From Tolypothrix bouteillei VB521301 (GTDB lineage: Bacteria > Cyanobacteriota > Cyanobacteriia > Cyanobacteriales > Nostocaceae): a DNA stretch of 64,000 bases. Below, piece after piece: positions 13,040 to 22,014 of the stretch (the stretch's first letter is position 1; each line of letters begins with the position of its first letter). Under the pieces are notes generated by a model, which saw only the letters and a list, made by a program, of their open reading frames with translations, was not told where the DNA came from and did no database searches. The position numbers were made by a program, and so were the translations under genes. The stretch covers positions 4,298,895 to 4,362,894 of the forward strand of contig NZ_JHEG04000001.1 in the NCBI RefSeq assembly GCF_000760695.4. Direction: 5' to 3'.

Positions 13040-13285
13040 ATGAAAGCAATTAAAATAATGGCAACTATTGATGAACACGGACAACTTACTTTAGATCGCC
13101 CCTTAGTAAGTGATAAAAACAGTCGCGTTGAAGTTATTGTCCTGATTCCAGAAGAAGTAGAAATCGAGGAAAATGATAAATCTAAGGAAGAGATTTTAGA
13201 AGATTTCCGTCAAGCTTGGCATGAGGCAATGACTGGACAAATAATTCCTGTTGCTCAACTTTGGGAAGGACTCGAGGATGTCTGA
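13040..13285 (+). CDS. Antitoxin-like protein of a RelE/ParE-type module
   Basis: 81 residues. A short beta-rich start (MKAIKIMATIDEHGQLTLDR) is followed by VEVIVLIPEEVE and a helical acidic tail (KEEILEDFRQAWHEAMTGQIIPVAQLWEGLE). This plan, and overlap with a RelE-like reading frame, is common for small cyanobacterial antitoxins. Its last 8 bases overlap the start of the toxin remnant at 13278. Because the toxin is broken, the protein may now be an orphan antitoxin. The family assignment rests on context and general resemblance. Confidence 0.65.
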   Translation: MKAIKIMATIDEHGQLTLDRPLVSDKNSRVEVIVLIPEEVEIEENDKSKEEILEDFRQAWHEAMTGQIIPVAQLWEGLEDV

Positions 13286-13590: not shown

Positions 13591-16500
13591 TTACTCTCTC
13601 AACTTTTTCAACTCTTCTGTTGTAAAGGGATTTTTACCTGCAATTAAGGTATTAATCCAACGTTGACGCTGTGATTTGTACTTGGAATTATCAGTCCACT
13701 TGATAAAGGCTTGGAAATCTGCAACAGATCCTTTGCTATTACCAGTGAGCGCTCTAGCTAGCCCTCGGCTATCAAGAATACCTCCATCTTTTGGTGAAAG
13801 GGCAACTGCTTTTTCACAAGCAAACATGACATCTTTAGCAAACCCCCGCAAGCTACCATCCCAACAAAGAGAATTCCATTCCTTGGCAGAAATAGTTAAA
13901 GCAGGATCGAGTGTTTGAGCATCTTTGTAAAAAGCGAGCGCTTCTTTGAATTTATCCTGCTTTACCAGCGCTTCTCCTCGTATAAGAAAAATCACTGCTT
14001 TTGGATTCTTTTCTATAGCTTTTGTTTTTGGATTCAGATCGAGATTAGGAGACAGTTTCTGTGCTTTTGTTAACTGAACTAATGCTGCCTCAATGTCACC
14101 TTCTTGGGCAAGTTCTCTGCCCTGAGAAACCATAATAATTGGTACCGCTTTTTCCTCTGAATCAAACGTTAATTTGGAATTCCACGCTTTAGCTTTATTA
14201 AACTTAGCCACTGCATCCTCAAAATTTCCCTCAGTTGCTAATGCCTCACCTTGTTCTACTAAAGTCGATGCGGCGGCAATCCGGAGAGGCTTTGTTTGAC
14301 ATACATGGAGTTCTGCCAATGTCTCAGGATACCGAGGTAAATAATATTTGAGCCAATCGCACCCCAACACAAGTAAATTTTCCAGATCCAAGTTCCACAA
14401 TTTCACCGTCTTGTCCCAACTTGCAGAAGCAATCGTCTTGCCGTCGGGGCTGAAGCTGACGCTCACAACTGGAGCGGAATGCCCTTTGAAGGTTGTGAGT
14501 TCTCTGCCTGTGGTCTCCCAGAGTTTAACGGTGTTGTCCTTGCTTGCAGAAGCAATCGTCTTGCCGTCCGGGCTGAAGTTAACGCTTGAAATCCAACCTG
14601 AATGTCCTTTGAGGGTTTTGAGTTCTCTACCTGTGATATCCCAAAGTTTGATGGTGTTGTCCCAACTTGCAGAAGCAATCGTCTTGCCGTCGGGGCTGAA
14701 ACTGACGCTATAAACTGGAGCGGAATGCCCTTTGAGGGTTTTGAGTTCTTTGCCTGTGGTATCCCACAATTTCACCGTCTTGTCCAAACTTGCAGAAGCA
14801 ATCGTCTTGCCATCGGGGCTGAAACTGACGCTATAAACTGGAGCGGAATGCCCTTTGAGGGTTTTGAGTTCTTTGCCTGTGGTATCCCAGAGTTTGATGG
14901 TGTTGTCCTCACTTGCAGAAGCGATGGTCTTGCCATCGGGGCTGAAGCTGACGCTCACAATTGGAGCGGAATGCCCTTTGAGGGTCTTGAGTTCTCTACC
15001 TGTGGTATCCCAGAGTTTGACGGTGTTGTCCCTACTTGCAGAAGCAATCGTCTTGCCATCGGGGCTGAAGCTGACGCTATAAACTGGAGCGGAATGCCCT
15101 TTGAGGGTTTTGAGTTCTCTGCCTGCGGTATCCCAGAGTTTGACGGTATTGTCCCTACTTGTAGAAGCAATCGTCTTGCCATCGGGGCTGAAGCTGACGC
15201 TATAAACTGGAGCGGAATGCCCTTTGAGGGTTTTGAGTTCTCTACCTGTGGTATCCCAGAGTTTGACGGTGTTGTCCCAACTTGCAGAAGCAATTGTCTT
15301 GCCGTCGGGGCTGAAGCTGATGCTCGAAATATAGGCAGAATGCTCTTTGAGGGTTTTGAGTTCTCTGCCTGTGATATCCCAAAGTTTGATGGTGTTGTCC
15401 CAACTTGCAGAAGCAATCGTCTTGCCGTCGGGGCTGAAGCTGACACTAAAAACTTCGGCGGAATGCCCTTTGAGTGTTTTGAGTTCTTTGCCTGTGGTAT
15501 CCCAAAGTTTGACCGTGTTGTCACTACTTGCAGAAGCGATGGTCTTGCCGTCGGGGCTGAAGCTGACACTAAAAACTTCGGCGGAATGCCCTTTGAGGGT
15601 TTTGAGTTCTTTGCCTGTGGTATCCCAAAGTTTGACCGTGTTGTCACTACTTGCAGAAGCGATGGTCTTGCCGTCGGGGCTGAAGCTGACGCTATAAACC
15701 AAACCTGAATGCCCTTTAAGGGTTTTGAGTTCTTTGCCTGTGGTATCCCAAAGTTTGATAGTGTTGTCACTACTTGCAGAAGCGATAGTCTTGCCGTCGG
15801 GGCTAAAGCTGACGCTTGAAACATAAGCGGAATGCCCTTTGAGGGTTTTGAGTTCTTTGCCTGTGGTATCCCAAAGTTTGATAGTGTTGTCCTTACTTGC
15901 AGAAGCAATTGTCTTGCCATCAGGACTAAAGCTGACGCTCATAACTGGAGCGGAATGCCCTTTGAGGGTTTTGAGTTCTCTGCCTGTGTTATTATCCCAG
16001 AGTTTGACGGTGTTGTCCTCACTTGCAGAAGCAATGGTCTTGCCGTCGGGGCTGAAGCTGACGCTTATCACTGAAGCAGAATGCCCTTTAAGGGTTTTGA
16101 GTTCTCTGCCAAAAGACTCATACACTGCTTGCCGTAAAGCAACAACAACTCGATCGCGTGTATTGGCTTCCATCCACTTTGACCAAATTGTCTGTTGCAG
16201 TTTTTCTCCTGCTTTAATACTTTCTACCAAAGCTTCTTCTTGAAGAGTAGCTGTAAAAAGTGCTTCTGAAGAAGAAGCAAGAGCGCTAATTTGAGCATTT
16301 GTTTCACCAATGGTTGACTTGATTCCAAATGTCACAGCCACGGCTGTTAATGCCACCAATCCTACCCCTGTACCAAAGGCGATTCTTAATCGCTGTTTTA
16401 AAACTTGATTTAACTTTGCTTCTGCTAATTGGCGTTTTTGTTTTTCTCTTTCTAATTCTGCTAATAATTCCGCACCGCGTTGTTGGCGAATAAAAGATAC

Positions 16501-19140
16501 CAAATAATCATGAACGAGTTGATAGCGATCTGCTGGAGATTGCGGTATCAAGAAGACTATACCTGATGTCACTAAAATCTTTAAAACTAATTCTAATTTA
16601 TCAACCTTGGCTGCTAAAAATGCTAAAGTATCTGCTAATTCAGCATAGGTTTTTAACGGACGCGTATTATTTTCATCAGTTAGTAAATACAAGACTAATT
16701 GAGCAGCACGTTCATTTTCTTGTCCGCAATCTTTCACAACTTCGTCTAAGTATCTTTGGACTAGTTGTTCTTTTGGTCCTTGTTCCTGATACTGTTTTAA
16801 CTGAGTGATTTCTTCGGTTTCTAGTTGTGCCCCTACGACTTGTAACTCAATGGGACGAACTTCTCCTTCTTCTGCCGCTAAATCTCTTACTAATTCTTCA
16901 ATGAGTTCTGGTTCTAGAGAAGAACGTTGAGTTAAATTTTTAATAACCTTTCTCGCACCTTCAGGAGAAAAATTTCCAAAATAGTAGCGAATTCCTTTAT
17001 TCAAAATATCATTTTTTGTGACTTCTAAATTTGTAATGCGATCGCACTCCAATAAATAATGCAAATAATCTTCACGTAAAGCAATAATGACTTTCACATA
17101 GGGAATATCCCAACTATCCAAAGCAAGTTTCAAAAACTGCCAAAACTCTTTTCGTTGAGATGGTTGAGAACAGTTAAAGAAAAACTCTTCAAATTGGTCA
17201 AAAATGAGAATAGTTAAGAAATTGCGAGTTGCATTTTGCCGTAATTGTTGAAGAATCTTATGAATTAACCCCGATGACTCCGCCCCCAACTCCTCCCCAT
17301 GTCCACAGTTTTGGGGTGTTGTGTCACGAAGCACTTTACCCAATTCCTGTTTCCAATCACTGTAAAATCTGACTGTGACTGGCAAAGGAATCCGACTATC
17401 AATAGCAGGTAGATCGTGCAATGCGGGTACCAATCCTGCTGTCAGCAGCGAACTTTTTCCAACTCCAGAGGGACCATAAATCACAACTAATTTTTGGTCA
17501 TCTCGACTGATGCGATGGATTAATTGTTTAACGTCTTCTTCTCGCCCAGATGCAACAATTTCTTGAGCAATAGTTCCTTGCTGAGAGGTTGTTCCCACAG
17601 CATCACCGTACAATTGAGTTGAACCAACTGTTATCAAAGCAGGATGAATCACCTGTCGCTGAGATTGCAATCGCCCCGCACCAATGAAAGCGCGGAAACC
17701 ATATTGTTGCTCGATGGAACGTTTCTCTTGCTTGAGTTCAAATGCTTCTAAATATCTATGTTGTTGGTAGTGAAGCTCGGATAATGCATTTAATATCCGT
17801 ATGTAAAGCTGTGGGTTATAATCGGGCTTACATCCTTCCTTAGCTGTTTCTAAGTTGTGTAGCGCTGCTTGTACTTCGTTTTGATGATGATATTGGGCTT
17901 GAGAGATTAAAAATTGATACCAACTTTGATAATGTCGTTTGATATCACTTTCATTTGCTAGTTTTGCGATCGCTTGAAGTGCTCTGATTGCATACTGCTG
18001 AGTCTCTTCCCAATTAGATTTTCCCAGTCCAACTTCTGCAAGGGAAGCATAAGCATTTGCCAACCTGAGAGTATTGGGATATGTTGTGTGTAGTTCAATG
18101 GCAGTGTTAGCAACAGATTTTAATTCATCCCATTTTGCTAACTGTTGCAGCACTTCTCCCCAAGGATTGATAAATTGAGCCACTAAATCGGGACGGTTTG
18201 CATGCTGTAGGATTTGCACGCACCGTTGATAGTAATTTTCTGCTTGACGACACGCTGCTTCATACTCGGCTCGATGTAAAACCGCGTACCTTCGCCACCA
18301 TAACCCCAGGTGGAAGAGTACGCAGGCTTGTTGTTCTGTGTAAGGAGTGGGGGAGGGGGGAGAAAGTTCTACCATGTCCCCCATCTCTCCTCGCTGTTCC
18401 CAGAATGTAAGGCTTTGTTCGTAAAGTTGACGCGATCGCTCCATTTGACTTTTACTATAAGCATCGCGTCCTGAAATAAATTGCTGGCTGGCTTCTAATT
18501 CTGGTTCGGAGTAGCCCTGGCTGTGTAATTCTTCCAATGCTGATTCAATTTCAGCCGCATCCATTCCTATATTTAATGCAGTATTGTCTAAAAATCTGTC
18601 TCCACCTGTTTCTAATATTTTCGCAAATAACCCATCTACTTTTTTTTTAAGAACCTCAATTAAGTCTGTAGTCGAGATGGCAAATTTAATGGGTACGCCA
18701 GCATAAGTATAAAAATCGGGTGCCAGTTTTATAAACTTTTGCAGCACTAAATCGTTTATCCAGAAGACTACAGGAAATGAAAAGCTTTGGGGAAAATCAT
18801 CTCGCACTCGATTTATAGAAATCAACAAATCGTCAATGGCTGTGACTGACTGCAATCCCAGTACCATAATGGCATCTGTCACAGATAATCTATCGGTTGC
18901 CAACTGTGCATGAATAATTGAATATAGATTTTTTGCTGACTTATCTAAAGTTATTTCTAGTATTTGTAATTGAGAATTTTGCCGTAACTGTTCTATAATT
19001 TCTTCTTGCAAATGTGCGTAGTTACAGCGTACTAAAATTAGGGAAAAGCGACCTTGAGAACGAACGATCGCTCTTACAAGAGTCGCCAGCGATCGCTCAT
19101 TTTGCACGGAAATTTCTTCTGGATTTATCGGTTCGCTCAT
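13591..19140 (-). CDS. Giant STAND NTPase with TPRs, one membrane segment and 14 WD40 repeats
   Basis: 1849 residues. Order: residues 1-200, a P-loop-like fold without a clear Walker A but with PVVFWINDL resembling Walker B; about 225-480, TPR-like helices; about 540-900, a STAND NTPase (novel-STAND type) with GPSGVGKSS near 555-563 and LIFDQFEEFFF near 645; one membrane helix near 917-937 (FGTGVGLVALTAVAVTFGI); 1012-1587, 14 WD40 repeats of 41 residues, enough for two seven-bladed propellers; then LLVLGCDWLKYY and C-terminal TPRs. STAND proteins are signal-dependent switches that assemble after ligand binding. The start codon overlaps the stop of the upstream ATPase gene (ATGA), so the two are coupled. 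Basic residues before the helix put the NTPase in the cytoplasm and the propellers outside. Ligand and output are unknown. Confidence 0.88.
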   Translation of the reverse strand: MSEPINPEEISVQNERSLATLVRAIVRSQGRFSLILVRCNYAHLQEEIIEQLRQNSQLQILEITLDKSAKNLYSIIHAQLATDRLSVTDAIMVLGLQSVTAIDDLLISINRVRDDFPQSFSFPVVFWINDLVLQKFIKLAPDFYTYAGVPIKFAISTTDLIEVLKKKVDGLFAKILETGGDRFLDNTALNIGMDAAEIESALEELHSQGYSEPELEASQQFISGRDAYSKSQMERSRQLYEQSLTFWEQRGEMGDMVELSPPSPTPYTEQQACVLFHLGLWWRRYAVLHRAEYEAACRQAENYYQRCVQILQHANRPDLVAQFINPWGEVLQQLAKWDELKSVANTAIELHTTYPNTLRLANAYASLAEVGLGKSNWEETQQYAIRALQAIAKLANESDIKRHYQSWYQFLISQAQYHHQNEVQAALHNLETAKEGCKPDYNPQLYIRILNALSELHYQQHRYLEAFELKQEKRSIEQQYGFRAFIGAGRLQSQRQVIHPALITVGSTQLYGDAVGTTSQQGTIAQEIVASGREEDVKQLIHRISRDDQKLVVIYGPSGVGKSSLLTAGLVPALHDLPAIDSRIPLPVTVRFYSDWKQELGKVLRDTTPQNCGHGEELGAESSGLIHKILQQLRQNATRNFLTILIFDQFEEFFFNCSQPSQRKEFWQFLKLALDSWDIPYVKVIIALREDYLHYLLECDRITNLEVTKNDILNKGIRYYFGNFSPEGARKVIKNLTQRSSLEPELIEELVRDLAAEEGEVRPIELQVVGAQLETEEITQLKQYQEQGPKEQLVQRYLDEVVKDCGQENERAAQLVLYLLTDENNTRPLKTYAELADTLAFLAAKVDKLELVLKILVTSGIVFLIPQSPADRYQLVHDYLVSFIRQQRGAELLAELEREKQKRQLAEAKLNQVLKQRLRIAFGTGVGLVALTAVAVTFGIKSTIGETNAQISALASSSEALFTATLQEEALVESIKAGEKLQQTIWSKWMEANTRDRVVVALRQAVYESFGRELKTLKGHSASVISVSFSPDGKTIASASEDNTVKLWDNNTGRELKTLKGHSAPVMSVSFSPDGKTIASASKDNTIKLWDTTGKELKTLKGHSAYVSSVSFSPDGKTIASASSDNTIKLWDTTGKELKTLKGHSGLVYSVSFSPDGKTIASASSDNTVKLWDTTGKELKTLKGHSAEVFSVSFSPDGKTIASASSDNTVKLWDTTGKELKTLKGHSAEVFSVSFSPDGKTIASASWDNTIKLWDITGRELKTLKEHSAYISSISFSPDGKTIASASWDNTVKLWDTTGRELKTLKGHSAPVYSVSFSPDGKTIASTSRDNTVKLWDTAGRELKTLKGHSAPVYSVSFSPDGKTIASASRDNTVKLWDTTGRELKTLKGHSAPIVSVSFSPDGKTIASASEDNTIKLWDTTGKELKTLKGHSAPVYSVSFSPDGKTIASASLDKTVKLWDTTGKELKTLKGHSAPVYSVSFSPDGKTIASASWDNTIKLWDITGRELKTLKGHSGWISSVNFSPDGKTIASASKDNTVKLWETTGRELTTFKGHSAPVVSVSFSPDGKTIASASWDKTVKLWNLDLENLLVLGCDWLKYYLPRYPETLAELHVCQTKPLRIAAASTLVEQGEALATEGNFEDAVAKFNKAKAWNSKLTFDSEEKAVPIIMVSQGRELAQEGDIEAALVQLTKAQKLSPNLDLNPKTKAIEKNPKAVIFLIRGEALVKQDKFKEALAFYKDAQTLDPALTISAKEWNSLCWDGSLRGFAKDVMFACEKAVALSPKDGGILDSRGLARALTGNSKGSVADFQAFIKWTDNSKYKSQRQRWINTLIAGKNPFTTEELKKLRE
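14383..16105 (-). repeat. Tandem array of 14 WD40-coding repeats, about 123 bp each
   Basis: Fourteen in-frame units inside the STAND gene encode LKTLKGHS-x-x-SVSFSPDGKTIASAS-x-DNT(V/I)KLWDTTG(K/R)E. All are 41 residues except the first, which has one extra. Neighbouring units such as those at about 15418-15540 and 15541-15663 are nearly identical in DNA. Differences cluster at a few codons. Long open frames on the opposite strand and in other frames here are by-products of the repeat. Confidence 0.95.
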
Positions 19141-20447
19141 ACCTGAAATTGCTTGGCTTCTGCTAATACGGGATTAATACCAAACCAGCGTCCCTGTTTG
19201 TCCTGATATTCAAAGACAAATAAACTTCTTAATAAAGTTTGATAGTCATCTTCACCACTCACACTTTGCTGCTGAACGACTTGACGGAGCAATTCCCATT
19301 CATGTTTTGTAATAGATAACACCAAGCTTTCGCGGTATTCGCGGATGGAGTTTTCCAAACATTCTCGCGATAAAGGGGGATCTTCTGACTGAAGACAACT
19401 GTAGAGCAGCCCTAGTAAGTTTCGCACGTGACCCCCACTGCTTTGACAAAGCCTGTTTAAAGTATCGGGAGTATCGAAAACTTCTGCAATCAAACCCAAC
19501 CTCAATTCAGGGTTGACTGTGGGAAAAGCTCTTGCTAATACCATCTGTTGCAAAAGCTCTATACCTTCAGAGCACGGACTACCATCGCGTAACTGCACGG
19601 GAACCATCGGTAGTATCTTGGGACTCACTCCACCACCCAAACGATTTTTCATCGTCTCATACTCGTTAGAGAATACCAATGCTAGGGGTATTGTGTAAAC
19701 AACATGGCACTTCAGCTTGCGTAACTCTTCGCCGCGATCGACAAACAAGTGTTCTGGTTGCGATCGCTCTCGGTTTTTCGCCCTTGGATCGACTCGATCC
19801 AAATTATCTACAATCACCACCAACCCTTTCTTACCCTTATCTTTGAGTTCCTGGTTAGCACGAGTTAAGAATTCTTCATTCAGAGATTCCAAAATATTAT
19901 TAGTGCGAGGTTCTAGATATTGCCTTAACTGACTTCGCAAAAGAGGGCTATCTTTTGTTTTTGCGCTAATTTTAGCAATACCTACAGATAACTCCCCCGA
20001 AAGTTCTTTGGGAGTTTGTAAAAATTCATGAATTTCACCTAATAGTTTGGCAAAATATCCCGGTCTGAGTTTAATTCCTACTGCTTCTAAACTTTCACTC
20101 ACTGACCTAGCGATCGCCAGTAATATATCAGTAACATCTACATCAGCCATGTCTAGGTCTTGTGTGGACTCAAAATATACCACATGAAAACCTTGCTGTT
20201 TTAACTCTGCTTCCAACCGTCGCAACTCAGTCGATTTGCCACAACCAATATGACCGGTAAATAATTGGCAAGTTGGTTTATCTGGAGAAAGGCGTGTAAT
20301 CGTTCGTCCAAGTGCTTCAATCACTTTAGAACCGCGCACGGAAGCAAAGTCTATATAGTACTGCCTATCTTGAGGATTTGCCAAGACTAGAGTTCTGCTG
20401 GGGTTGCAACTGTCAAAAAATCTTTGCAAATCTAGTTTAAGTCGCAT
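19137..20447 (-). CDS. P-loop ATPase, partner of the STAND-WD40 protein
   Basis: 436 residues, no membrane segment. Walker A is GHIGCGKS at residues 65-72, and a Walker B-like LVVIVDNLDRVD is at about 209-220, followed by an arginine-rich stretch. The order resembles KAP/AAA-type and STAND-related ATPases. The N-terminal DLQRFFDSCNPSRTLVLANPQDRQYYIDFASVRG precedes the P-loop. The C-terminal third looks like a helical winged-helix bundle (NLLGLLYSCLQSED...ITKHEWELLRQVV). It overlaps the STAND gene by 4 bases, so the two proteins are probably made in fixed ratio and may act together. It may load or regulate its partner; this is inferred from gene order only. Confidence 0.8.
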   Translation of the reverse strand: MRLKLDLQRFFDSCNPSRTLVLANPQDRQYYIDFASVRGSKVIEALGRTITRLSPDKPTCQLFTGHIGCGKSTELRRLEAELKQQGFHVVYFESTQDLDMADVDVTDILLAIARSVSESLEAVGIKLRPGYFAKLLGEIHEFLQTPKELSGELSVGIAKISAKTKDSPLLRSQLRQYLEPRTNNILESLNEEFLTRANQELKDKGKKGLVVIVDNLDRVDPRAKNRERSQPEHLFVDRGEELRKLKCHVVYTIPLALVFSNEYETMKNRLGGGVSPKILPMVPVQLRDGSPCSEGIELLQQMVLARAFPTVNPELRLGLIAEVFDTPDTLNRLCQSSGGHVRNLLGLLYSCLQSEDPPLSRECLENSIREYRESLVLSITKHEWELLRQVVQQQSVSGEDDYQTLLRSLFVFEYQDKQGRWFGINPVLAEAKQFQV

Positions 20448-21359: not shown

Positions 21360-21698
21360 TTAGCCTGAAAAATTATTGTCATCTTTTGGAGCAAGAGCAA
21401 TTTGATAACCTAATGCATCAAGAAATTCGATTAAAGTGTAAATCTCTGCTCCACTAGTTTCTGCAAGAATTTTATCTAGTTTTTCATAATGCTGTTTGGC
21501 AGTTTCTGAAAGATTATTTGCTTGTAGACGCGCCTCTATCACATCTTTTAGGGCTGAACCTAGCATTTCAAACCCAGCGCCATCTTCTTCTAATTCCAAG
21601 AAAGTTTGAATATAAGCAGCAGCCTCTTGGGGATCTTTAAGAGATGAAATCAAGTATTCACGGTAACTTCTACTTGCTGGTGCTTGTACGTTTTTCAT
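21360..21698 (-). CDS. Antitoxin of a HigBA-like module
   Basis: 112 residues from the ATG at 21698 (MKNVQAPASRSYREYLISSL). The frame is open further upstream, but that part lies inside the toxin gene. Motifs DPQEAAAYIQTFLELEEDG, LSETAKQHYEKLDKIL and LIEFLDALGYQIALAPK match the addiction-module antidote family, which has a helix-turn-helix in its C-terminal half. It should neutralise the toxin encoded just upstream and repress the operon. The toxin-first order and a 29-base overlap are typical of HigBA-type pairs. Confidence 0.75.
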   Translation of the reverse strand: MKNVQAPASRSYREYLISSLKDPQEAAAYIQTFLELEEDGAGFEMLGSALKDVIEARLQANNLSETAKQHYEKLDKILAETSGAEIYTLIEFLDALGYQIALAPKDDNNFSG

Positions 21699-22014
21699 AA
21701 TCTTTCCAGTATTCCCTAGCTTTGTTGATATCTTGTTCTTGAGTACTTTTATCTCCACCACAAAGAAGAAGTACGATTGTTGTTCCTATTTGTCCAAAAT
21801 ACACGCGGTATCCCGGACCATAATCCACTTTTAGTTCGCAAACTCCTTCTCCAACTGAACGATAATTTCCTAAATTGCCTGACTCTACTCGCTTCAGCCT
21901 GTTTCTGATTTTAGCTCTTGCTTGAATATCTCTCAAAGCTTCAAGCCATTCTGCAAAAGGGCTTCTCCCTTCTGAAGTGAGATAATCCTGAATTTCTCTT
22001 GGCTGTGCCTCCAT
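21670..22014 (-). CDS. RelE/HigB-type toxin (addiction module killer protein)
   Basis: 114 residues. RSPFAEWLEALRDIQARAKIRNRLKRVESGNLGNYRSVGEGV, ELKVDYGPGYRVYFGQ and LLLCGGDKSTQEQDINKAREYW are the hallmarks of the killer-protein branch of the RelE/ParE superfamily. Relatives cleave mRNA at the ribosome. The toxin gene comes first and overlaps the antitoxin gene. It lies upstream of the nuclease-like, ATPase and STAND genes on the same strand, separated from them by 131- and 142-base gaps. Confidence 0.82.
   Translation of the reverse strand: MEAQPREIQDYLTSEGRSPFAEWLEALRDIQARAKIRNRLKRVESGNLGNYRSVGEGVCELKVDYGPGYRVYFGQIGTTIVLLLCGGDKSTQEQDINKAREYWKDYEKRTSTSK

Follow-up and report, generated by a model that had tools for sequence, protein, structure and literature searches.

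Avs and bacterial NACHT proteins are single-gene STAND immune receptors, built from a central STAND NTPase and a C-terminal repeat sensor. Receptors of this type are touched on in the available part of PMC10907252. The predicted nSTAND2 system consists of two adjacent genes, one for an active STAND-type ATPase and the other for a partner without nucleotide motifs that carries variable modules; according to the accessible text of Kaur et al. 2021 (PMC8195603), STAND modules can be recognised in both products, most of the outputs are GT4 or HEPN, and a hetero-multimer is predicted. Highly repetitive prokaryotic WD40 proteins are described, in the available text of Hu et al. 2017 (PMC5587647), as common in cyanobacteria, with near-identical repeats and diversity at interaction hotspot sites. 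Judged by the available portions of these sources, the nSTAND2 system is the closest precedent for the two-gene unit analysed here.

We studied this unit in a window of 64,000 nucleotides, the whole stretch of DNA analysed, from Tolypothrix bouteillei VB521301. An earlier note on the same DNA had reported a 436-residue ATPase with the motif GHIGCGKS and an 1849-residue protein, the start of one gene and the stop of the other sharing four bases. Both genes and their positions were confirmed by the ORF calls, which add that the pair lies on the minus strand, a detail absent from that claim (Table 1). The ATPase sequence also contains a Walker-B-like GLVVIVDNLD. Structure modelling predicted an NTPase, a helical part and a winged-helix-like C-terminus, as in AAA+ proteins of the ORC/STAND type, and this modelled fold together with the P-loop of the clade places the protein among the STAND/ORC-type AAA+ ATPases. 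The whole ATPase scored 31.2 bits against the KAP NTPase family of Pfam (cut-off 20), which assigns it to that family by gathering score. Its sequence gave no match below E 0.16 to solved structures and no clear match in PADLOC-DB 2.0.0, where the best scores were 24.5 bits for PDC-S20 and 24.2 bits for mad8.

Table 1. Features of the two-gene unit, in window coordinates
Feature	Position	Strand	Basis
436-aa P-loop ATPase	19137..20447	-	predicted ORC/STAND type AAA+ fold
Walker A GHIGCGKS of the ATPase, residues 65-72	20232..20255	-	sequence; nearly all columns invariant in alignment A1
ATGA overlap of partner start and ATPase stop	19137..19140	-	sequence
1849-aa partner protein	13591..19140	-	ORF and domain scans
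N-domain, residues ~10-170	18631..19113	-	no Pfam match there; alignment A2; structure model
Helical TPR-like region, residues ~190-480	17701..18573	-	TPR_12 28.4 bits, just below cut-off 30.1; model and TPR fold matches
Strongly conserved stretch YGFRAFIGAGRL ahead of the NTPase, residues 480-491	17668..17703	-	(nearly) invariant columns, alignment A3
nSTAND1 NTPase, residues ~530-885	16486..17553	-	PF20703, 91.0 bits vs cut-off 27.1
Predicted single TM segment, residues ~920-938	16327..16383	-	hydropathy 2.02
14 WD40 repeats, residues ~1011-1586	14383..16110	-	PF00400, 14 stretches; repeat comparison
C-terminal TPR region, residues ~1590-1849	13594..14373	-	TPR_2 51.4 bits vs cut-off 27

The partner protein was resolved into an N-terminal domain (N-domain), a TPR region, an nSTAND1 NTPase, a predicted transmembrane (TM) helix, the WD40 repeats and a second TPR region, in this order. 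The NTPase belongs to nSTAND1 by its PF20703 score and by the P-loop GPSGVGKS at residues 556-563. Two weaker hydropathy segments, at 91 and 849, fall inside folded domains; a TM segment comparable to the predicted one was found in 107 of 128 partners, with an excess of K/R on its N-terminal side in 93 of the 107. Consecutive PF00400 repeats above the cut-off identify a WD40 repeat protein, and 13 of the repeats, of 41 aa each, share 85% mean identity and differ chiefly at repeat positions 13, 15 and 31. No catalytic effector domain was found in the window partner: Pfam gave no effector family in residues 1-560, and the Pfam lists, complete for residues 1-560, 561-980 and 1590-1849, contain neither GT4 nor HEPN. 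In PADLOC-DB 2.0.0 no clear match to the big protein was obtained outside the WD40 repeats; HEAT-ARM_XIII reached 186.9 bits, aligning best within the WD40 part at 1420-1588, TPR reached 22.9, and mad3 and LmuB reached 13.4 and 12.2 at the P-loop.

The N-domain, of about 170 aa, has an alpha/beta structure without a Walker A motif (alignment A2, model), and its residue C39 is invariant and N40 nearly so (alignment A2); R113 and P123-W127 are conserved as well. A Pfam scan matched no family to this stretch. Kinship in sequence to a solved structure was unsupported (best E 0.1), and a fold search with the 560-aa N-terminal model returned a match list filled by TPR proteins. The model places strands at 34-38, 60-64, 90-94 and 124-128, and its order of elements is compatible with a P-loop fold; the N-domain is possibly such a fold that lost its nucleotide site. 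This reading as an inactive ATPase fold rests on the element order of the model and not on a match, because hhalign (0.2%) gives no support for sequence kinship between the N-domain and the ATPase.

The Tolypothrix genome holds four such ATPases (one listed as two fragments), and the other three also precede a homologous big protein. Counted from the first start codon, the two genes overlap by 4 nt in the window and at L013 and by 25 nt at L012, and are separated by 363 nt at L011. The partner lies directly downstream at 15 of 16 named loci, and the contig of the 16th stops 198 bases past the ATPase gene; the ATPase of L029 is split across two ORFs. When every first-look candidate was scored in 11 genomes, which all belong to the 16 named records and were picked for holding the ATPase, an N-domain was located just downstream of 30 of the 33 main-family ATPases. 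The same arrangement was seen in a 292-genome cyanobacterial scan for 101/128 main-family ATPases among the matches listed, up to 150 per list and with a set maximum of candidates scored in each genome, the main and sister subfamilies being separated at a gap in the bit scores. For the other 27 listed ATPases no N-domain was listed, and 14 of these loci were opened: nine had no N-domain nearby, and four of these nine make up the aroE group, whose genomes hold an N-domain at another, unlinked place. For the sister subfamily, a weak N-domain match was found directly downstream in all six loci opened, and TPR arrays in all three partners scanned. Its pairing is shown mainly by these opened loci, because sister rows are unlinked or only partly linked among the matches listed (0/22 in the 292-genome scan; 15/26 for sister and other more distant rows) and in the 11-genome count (0/6). 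A third subfamily, taken as the rows that score more than 240 bits with A7, was linked in 33 of 37 listed cases, and two of the other four lie at contig ends; this count of third and distant rows covers 37 and 26 ATPase rows and 52 N-domain rows, with main-family and many weak or partial rows excluded. The third-subfamily N-domain is homologous to that of the window (hhalign 98.9%, E 1.6e-17). Chance neighbourhood is rejected by the counts for the named loci, the 11 genomes, the listed main family and the listed third subfamily; the pairing is old and genuine and spans three ATPase subfamilies. The outcome that the earlier note had named as fatal to its proposal, an ATPase usually alone or beside unrelated genes, occurred neither at the named loci nor in the 11 genomes.

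The part behind the N-domain differs between copies, as seen by Pfam on some partners (matches listed, often the best 25) and by eye for other tails. Other partner forms are the N-domain alone, TPR and kinase-receiver-WD40. At two loci the ATPase is present twice and a single partner contains two N-domains; a second ATPase fused to TIR was seen alongside a second N-domain, and TIR fusion of one ATPase was found in two loci. Because N-domain pairing persists in subfamilies with TPR partners, the constant unit is the ATPase with the N-domain, and STAND-WD40 is one swappable output. A two-part device, as first proposed, is likely, but the giant STAND-WD40 protein is rejected as its constant partner, since the tails vary while the N-domain stays. 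The N-domain heads different signalling modules and therefore may be a plug-in switch with exchangeable outputs.

Reading from sequence, we propose with a probability of about 0.65 that the products of the two genes form a dedicated molecular switch with two parts, a STAND/ORC-type ATPase and an adaptor, which would drive variable outputs. The ATPase would bind the N-domain of its neighbour, and its ADP/ATP state would hold or release the protein carrying that domain. The output in the window would be the TPR-nSTAND1-WD40 protein, probably membrane-anchored; its WD40 rings, with their few variable positions, would sense a ligand, whereupon the nSTAND1 NTPase would probably build the partner and the ATPase into one signalling ring. 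For some copies, the fusion of an ATPase to TIR in two relatives points to an output of NAD cleavage, cell death or defence.

Distances were correlated over 39 pairs. For this and the further distance comparisons, we set aside short fragments, nearly identical rows and loci that lacked either part. N-domain distances correlate more strongly with those of the ATPase (r=0.70) than with those of nSTAND1 in their own chain (r=0.45), the value for ATPase and nSTAND1 being 0.55. The partial correlation of ATPase and N-domain given nSTAND1 was 0.61, which was reached by 0/2000 permutations, with the 39 pairs not phylogenetically independent. The true partner had a median rank of 2 of 76. Unlinked ATPase/N-domain pairs gave r of 0.43, 0.47 and 0.74, compared with 0.11-0.25 for mismatched controls, in 3/3 genomes tested (G255, with two unlinked N-domains, and genomes not represented by both parts being excluded), and they match less tightly than linked ones (0.66-0.79). 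At the double loci, the correlations favoured A1-N1 and A2-N2 in 8/8 comparisons but were weak (0.07-0.36), and raw nearest neighbours disagree with them. Correlated distances can stem from co-inheritance alone, and gene order and correlated distance make up most of the evidence; ATGA overlaps, moreover, are frequent in bacteria. All this would suit operon hitch-hiking, that is, genes co-transcribed and co-inherited without mutual action. We nevertheless regard it as improbable, since three ATPase subfamilies that differ in their outputs all show the pairing, two loci have doubled the ATPase as well as the N-domain, unlinked pairs still match, and the N-domain follows the ATPase more closely than its own polypeptide.

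The function of the pair could also lie in growth, division or stress instead of defence, as an NTPase-gated scaffold reading an internal or envelope signal. The main-family loci L011, L093, L098, L104, L113 and L114 (five families, one in another order) share the same divergent position beside ftsQ-ftsZ, L161 (Okeania) has the pair beside ftsQ, where the locus ends, and a further group, L094-L097, adjoins or nears aroE. These stable places favour such a role, as do the housekeeping neighbours of the own-genome copies (acs; by eye, petC-petA and a metal transporter) and the absence of any ATPase match at E 1e-5 among phage records. We still consider it unlikely, though worth serious attention, in view of the TIR fusions, the diversified WD40 repeats, one relative standing third in a MoxR-vWA cluster, and nine plasmid records with relatives, some of which lie with genes of recombinase, toxin-antitoxin and NACHT type. 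The nearness to nucleases or defence genes raised in the earlier note did not hold in general: mobile or defence-type neighbours occur in some plasmid copies, and little of this kind was seen in the chromosomal loci opened, with flanks mostly judged by eye. The cluster at L091 (MoxR-like AAA, vWA and an ATPase behind about 244 aa, in a row) and plasmid locus L155, where an annotated MoxR adjoins an SAV_2336 N-terminal domain protein with a C-terminal 25%-identical ATPase, would suit an origin of the ATPase in MoxR-vWA type ternary conflict systems, with the window pair a broken-off remnant. This origin is very improbable: just these two loci show the association, the six window neighbours scanned contain neither MoxR nor vWA, and the L091 ATPase looks like a recruit because it nests among N-domain-paired ATPases. 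Least credible is a TnsC/ORC-like DNA-bound ATPase acting in transposition or replication. TnsC and ORC/Cdc6 do rank with CED-4 and plant NLRs among the fold matches of the ATPase model, and genes resembling transposases or TnpB are found close to L097 (by eye), L151 and L153 (annotated); however, inspection by eye of the loci opened showed no such gene that stays with the pair from locus to locus, and the partners are TPR/STAND/WD40 proteins.

Giant proteins of the nSTAND1-WD40 and TPR kinds occur several to a genome in many filamentous cyanobacteria, and often bear just the label 'hypothetical' or 'WD40 repeat protein'. If each giant protein answers to a dedicated ATPase via one adaptor, the two-part switch would give a handle on their switching. 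A search of open-licence PMC text found no description of the ATPase and N-domain pair. More tentatively, at somewhat less than even odds, the pair might reflect an undescribed signalling code, in which an adaptor of about 170 aa without a nucleotide site is a universal dock for CED-4-like ATPases, and the outputs attached to it are swapped (nothing, TPR, nSTAND1-WD40, CHASE2, kinase-receiver and, among more distantly related adaptors, CHAT). Several insulated ATPase-adaptor channels would then run in one cell, as a bacterial apoptosome-like platform with switch and sensor on separate polypeptides. The link of the giant proteins to dedicated ATPases, if real, would also reveal a two-gene way of building NLR-like receptors, in which cognate pairs stay separate within a cell, and a defence versus a division or growth role of such devices in multicellular bacteria would become testable.

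Compared with CED-4 and NLR cores, the core here is a small protein on its own, with no sensor or effector attached, TIR-fused copies excepted. The window partner resembles the Avs/NACHT single-gene receptors in its central STAND NTPase with a C-terminal repeat sensor, and differs in having a separate ATPase gene as constant companion and no N-terminal effector family (Pfam, residues 1-560). As in the highly repetitive WD40 proteins, its near-identical repeats vary at few sites; the available text of PMC5587647 describes neither the ATPase partner nor the N-domain. With the MoxR-vWA ternary conflict systems (VMAP, iSTAND, beta-propeller), as far as the accessible part of Kaur et al. 2020 (PMC7159879) goes, the unit shares an NTPase, a partner and variable domains, as well as multicellular hosts, putatively inactive STAND components and TPR and beta-propeller parts, whereas MoxR and vWA genes adjoin two relatives and none of the window neighbours scanned. 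In common with nSTAND2, within the available text, it is a unit of two adjacent genes, one for a presumably active STAND-type ATPase and one for a partner that lacks Walker motifs and carries variable modules, and a hetero-multimer is predicted. It departs from that system in an N-domain without a sequence match to the ATPase or Pfam, in outputs that are nSTAND1-WD40, TPR, kinase or nothing, with neither GT4 nor HEPN in the window partner outside WD40, and in its many ATPase/N-domain copies in stable chromosomal places.

We found that the ATPase and the large protein are encoded by two genes that overlap in the window, with toxin–antitoxin-type genes on both sides. The ATPase scored above the Pfam cut-offs for ATPase_2, KAP_NTPase and AAA_22. 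Its partner showed, in order, weak TPR, nSTAND1 (PF20703), WD40 and TPR matches, and no Pfam family matched its first ~180 residues, which carry the N-domain.

The ATPase gene, its partner gene and flanking features in the window
Feature	Position	Strand	Remark
ATPase gene	20447-19137	minus	ends in ATGA
Large partner gene	19140-13591	minus	start shares ATGA with the ATPase end
Weak HSDR_N + PD-(D/E)XK-like ORF, 212 aa	20590-21228	minus	142 nt upstream of ATPase
RelE/ParE-type toxin, overlapping a weak antidote-like ORF	21360-22014		upstream of the pair; TIGR02683, 128.9 bits
RelN-family antitoxin	13040-13285	plus	NF050107, 120.4 bits; just past the end of the large gene

The N-domain lay directly downstream of the ATPase, on the same strand, at 15 of 16 named loci from Calothrix, Spirulina, Okeania, Oculatella and Desulfobacterales/Desulfococcaceae records, and the contig of the sixteenth ends. 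Among 292 cyanobacterial genomes, 67 carried the N-domain, 65 the ATPase and 64 both. When all candidates were scored in 11 named-record genomes, 30 of 33 full-length main-family ATPases and 34 of 47 N-domain rows were linked, as were 0 of 6 sister-family rows by the main N-domain model. The pair of the earlier note, which had read the ATPase and a giant STAND-WD40 protein as a two-part recognition device, is real, conserved and more general than claimed.

Among the matches listed, an N-domain followed within 3 kb in 101 of 128 main-family and 0 of 22 sister-family rows. Fourteen of the 27 partnerless main-family loci in that set were opened: the partner was present after all in four (L092, L098, L100, L102), one (L093) was at a contig end, and four were aroE-group ATPases (L094-L097; aroE the next gene in three) with an unlinked N-domain protein in their genomes. 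No N-domain partner was seen in the other five (L091, L099, L101, L103, L104). At all six opened sister loci (L105-L110), the next downstream gene gave a weak N-domain match, and the three sister partners scanned with Pfam all carried TPR arrays. In the distant third subfamily, an N-domain lay downstream in 33 of 37 rows above 240 bits among the matches listed, two of the four unlinked rows being at contig ends; sister and other rows in the same comparison were linked in 15 of 26. The third-subfamily N-domain is homologous to that of the window (hhalign 98.9%, E 1.6e-17).

The constant part of the ATPase's partner is the N-domain; the giant STAND-WD40 protein is not, as what stands behind the N-domain varies between copies. 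TPR-nSTAND1-WD40 was the commonest tail among listed main-family partners. Other tails were TPR-nSTAND1 without WD40 (L020, L021, L028), TPR arrays, found in those sister and third-subfamily partners that were scanned, and TPR followed by a histidine kinase and receiver, both recognised by eye, and then WD40 (L025); in L023 and L024, of the kinase-receiver-WD40 type, the N-domain is a separate ORF. At the level of single protein sequences, CHASE2 (P0218) and, in relatives of the third N-domain, CHAT or NB-ARC also occur. At L111-L114 the N-domain (156-163 aa) stands bare. Genome G233 encodes the ATPase with a bare N-domain (L112), and an N-domain-nSTAND1-WD40 protein elsewhere (L129); G051 appears similar, with a second N-domain frame of 1358 aa.

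The 9.95-Mb, two-contig genome of the window's own strain holds four ATPases of this family, one listed as two fragments in the search table, and five N-domains. Opening the loci gave four pairs: the window, L011 (363-nt gap), L012 (25-nt overlap) and L013 (ATGA overlap). The fifth N-domain is a stand-alone 176-aa ORF with no linked ATPase (L014:7006-7536; G000:C1:957014-957445). Lone unlinked N-domain ORFs of 153-204 aa also occur in other genomes, 24 in all among the matches listed, some with internal stops, as if decaying. Proteins of ~690-770 aa partly matching the third-subfamily N-domain, possibly orthologues of one another, were seen here (G000:C1:2414382-2414603) and in about a dozen other genomes.

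Across 39 linked pairs, distance correlations were 0.70 for ATPase and N-domain, 0.55 for ATPase and nSTAND1, and 0.45 for N-domain and nSTAND1, which share one polypeptide; partial correlations were 0.61 (ATPase, N-domain) versus 0.36 (ATPase, nSTAND1). Residual profiles of 76 reference pairs gave a median of 0.81 for true partners versus -0.07 for mismatches, the true partner having a median rank of second and being among the five best matches in 58 of 76 cases, although these counts are not independent events because the pairs are related by descent. Unlinked ATPases and N-domains of G099, G039 and G129 correlated at 0.43, 0.47 and 0.74, compared with 0.11-0.25 in controls crossing unlinked with linked copies and 0.66-0.79 among linked copies. 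Two double loci, L092 (a relative of the same family) and L151 (plasmid4 of Calothrix sp. NIES-4101), encode ATPase 1, a TIR-fused ATPase 2 (PF13676, 110 and 116 bits) and a single partner protein in which two N-domains are combined with nSTAND1. In trees judged by eye, first and second copies have different nearest rows, and these differences match. All 8 comparisons of the correlation test favoured A1-N1 and A2-N2, though weakly, and raw nearest neighbours disagree; we regard cognate matching as suggestive.

The large protein of the window contains thirteen 41-aa WD40 repeats (mean identity 85%), most variable at positions 13, 15 and 31, which presumably match the named WD40 hotspot positions. 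In 81 partners with at least six repeats, these positions had a mean entropy of 2.03 bits versus 0.94 elsewhere, with columns 8 and 12 more variable than 15 and all three positions within the top eight columns in only 43. For highly repetitive WD40 proteins, variable sites are stated to be interaction hotspots (PMC5587647). In 107 of 128 partners a TM-like segment separates the NTPase from the WD40 part, and in 93 of the 107 the side preceding it is richer in K/R, which suggests an extracytoplasmic WD40 part. This topology is not an obvious fit for the kinase-receiver variant L025.

The six scanned neighbours in the window were the four flanking ORFs tabulated, TerC and acetate-CoA ligase. Elsewhere, the ATPase is divergent to ftsQ, with ftsZ where the locus reaches, at L011, L093, L098, L104, L113, L114 and L161, which span distant cyanobacterial families (only a bare N-domain follows at L113 and L114); other main-family loci have aroE adjoining or near. 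No phage record matched the ATPase in a phage-record search. Nine plasmid records held relatives, two at about 25% identity, and five were opened. Among the four closer relatives, L152 itself lies between two integrases. Nearby genes were HicAB, NACHT and zeta-toxin (L152), transposase, phage integrase and TIR-type genes (L151), TnpB (L153), and CHAT and DNA-methyltransferase genes (L154). Mobility and defence company therefore exist: the proximity to defence genes raised in the earlier note holds for some plasmid copies and is not the rule.

Several unusual architectures were also observed. L091:469-4609 holds three consecutive genes, for a MoxR-like ATPase, a vWA protein and a 674-aa protein with this ATPase C-terminal. 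In Calothrix PCC 7716 (L156:1300-4131) and NIES-4105 (L157:1564-4416), 943- and 950-aa proteins carry another P-loop domain and, by eye, a TPR-like stretch before this ATPase, and adjoin a 420-aa nSTAND1-like protein. Near the plasmid double locus, L151:981-4430 encodes a WD40 protein that also has Ras/Roc-like and TIR domains.

Taken together, we infer that the ATPase and N-domain unit acts as a switch. Our literature search found no paper describing this pair. The nearest idea is the predicted two-gene nSTAND2 system, in which an active STAND protein is paired with an inactive one and the effectors vary (Kaur et al. 2021, PMC8195603); the ATPase and N-domain unit differs from it in the partner domain and in the outputs.
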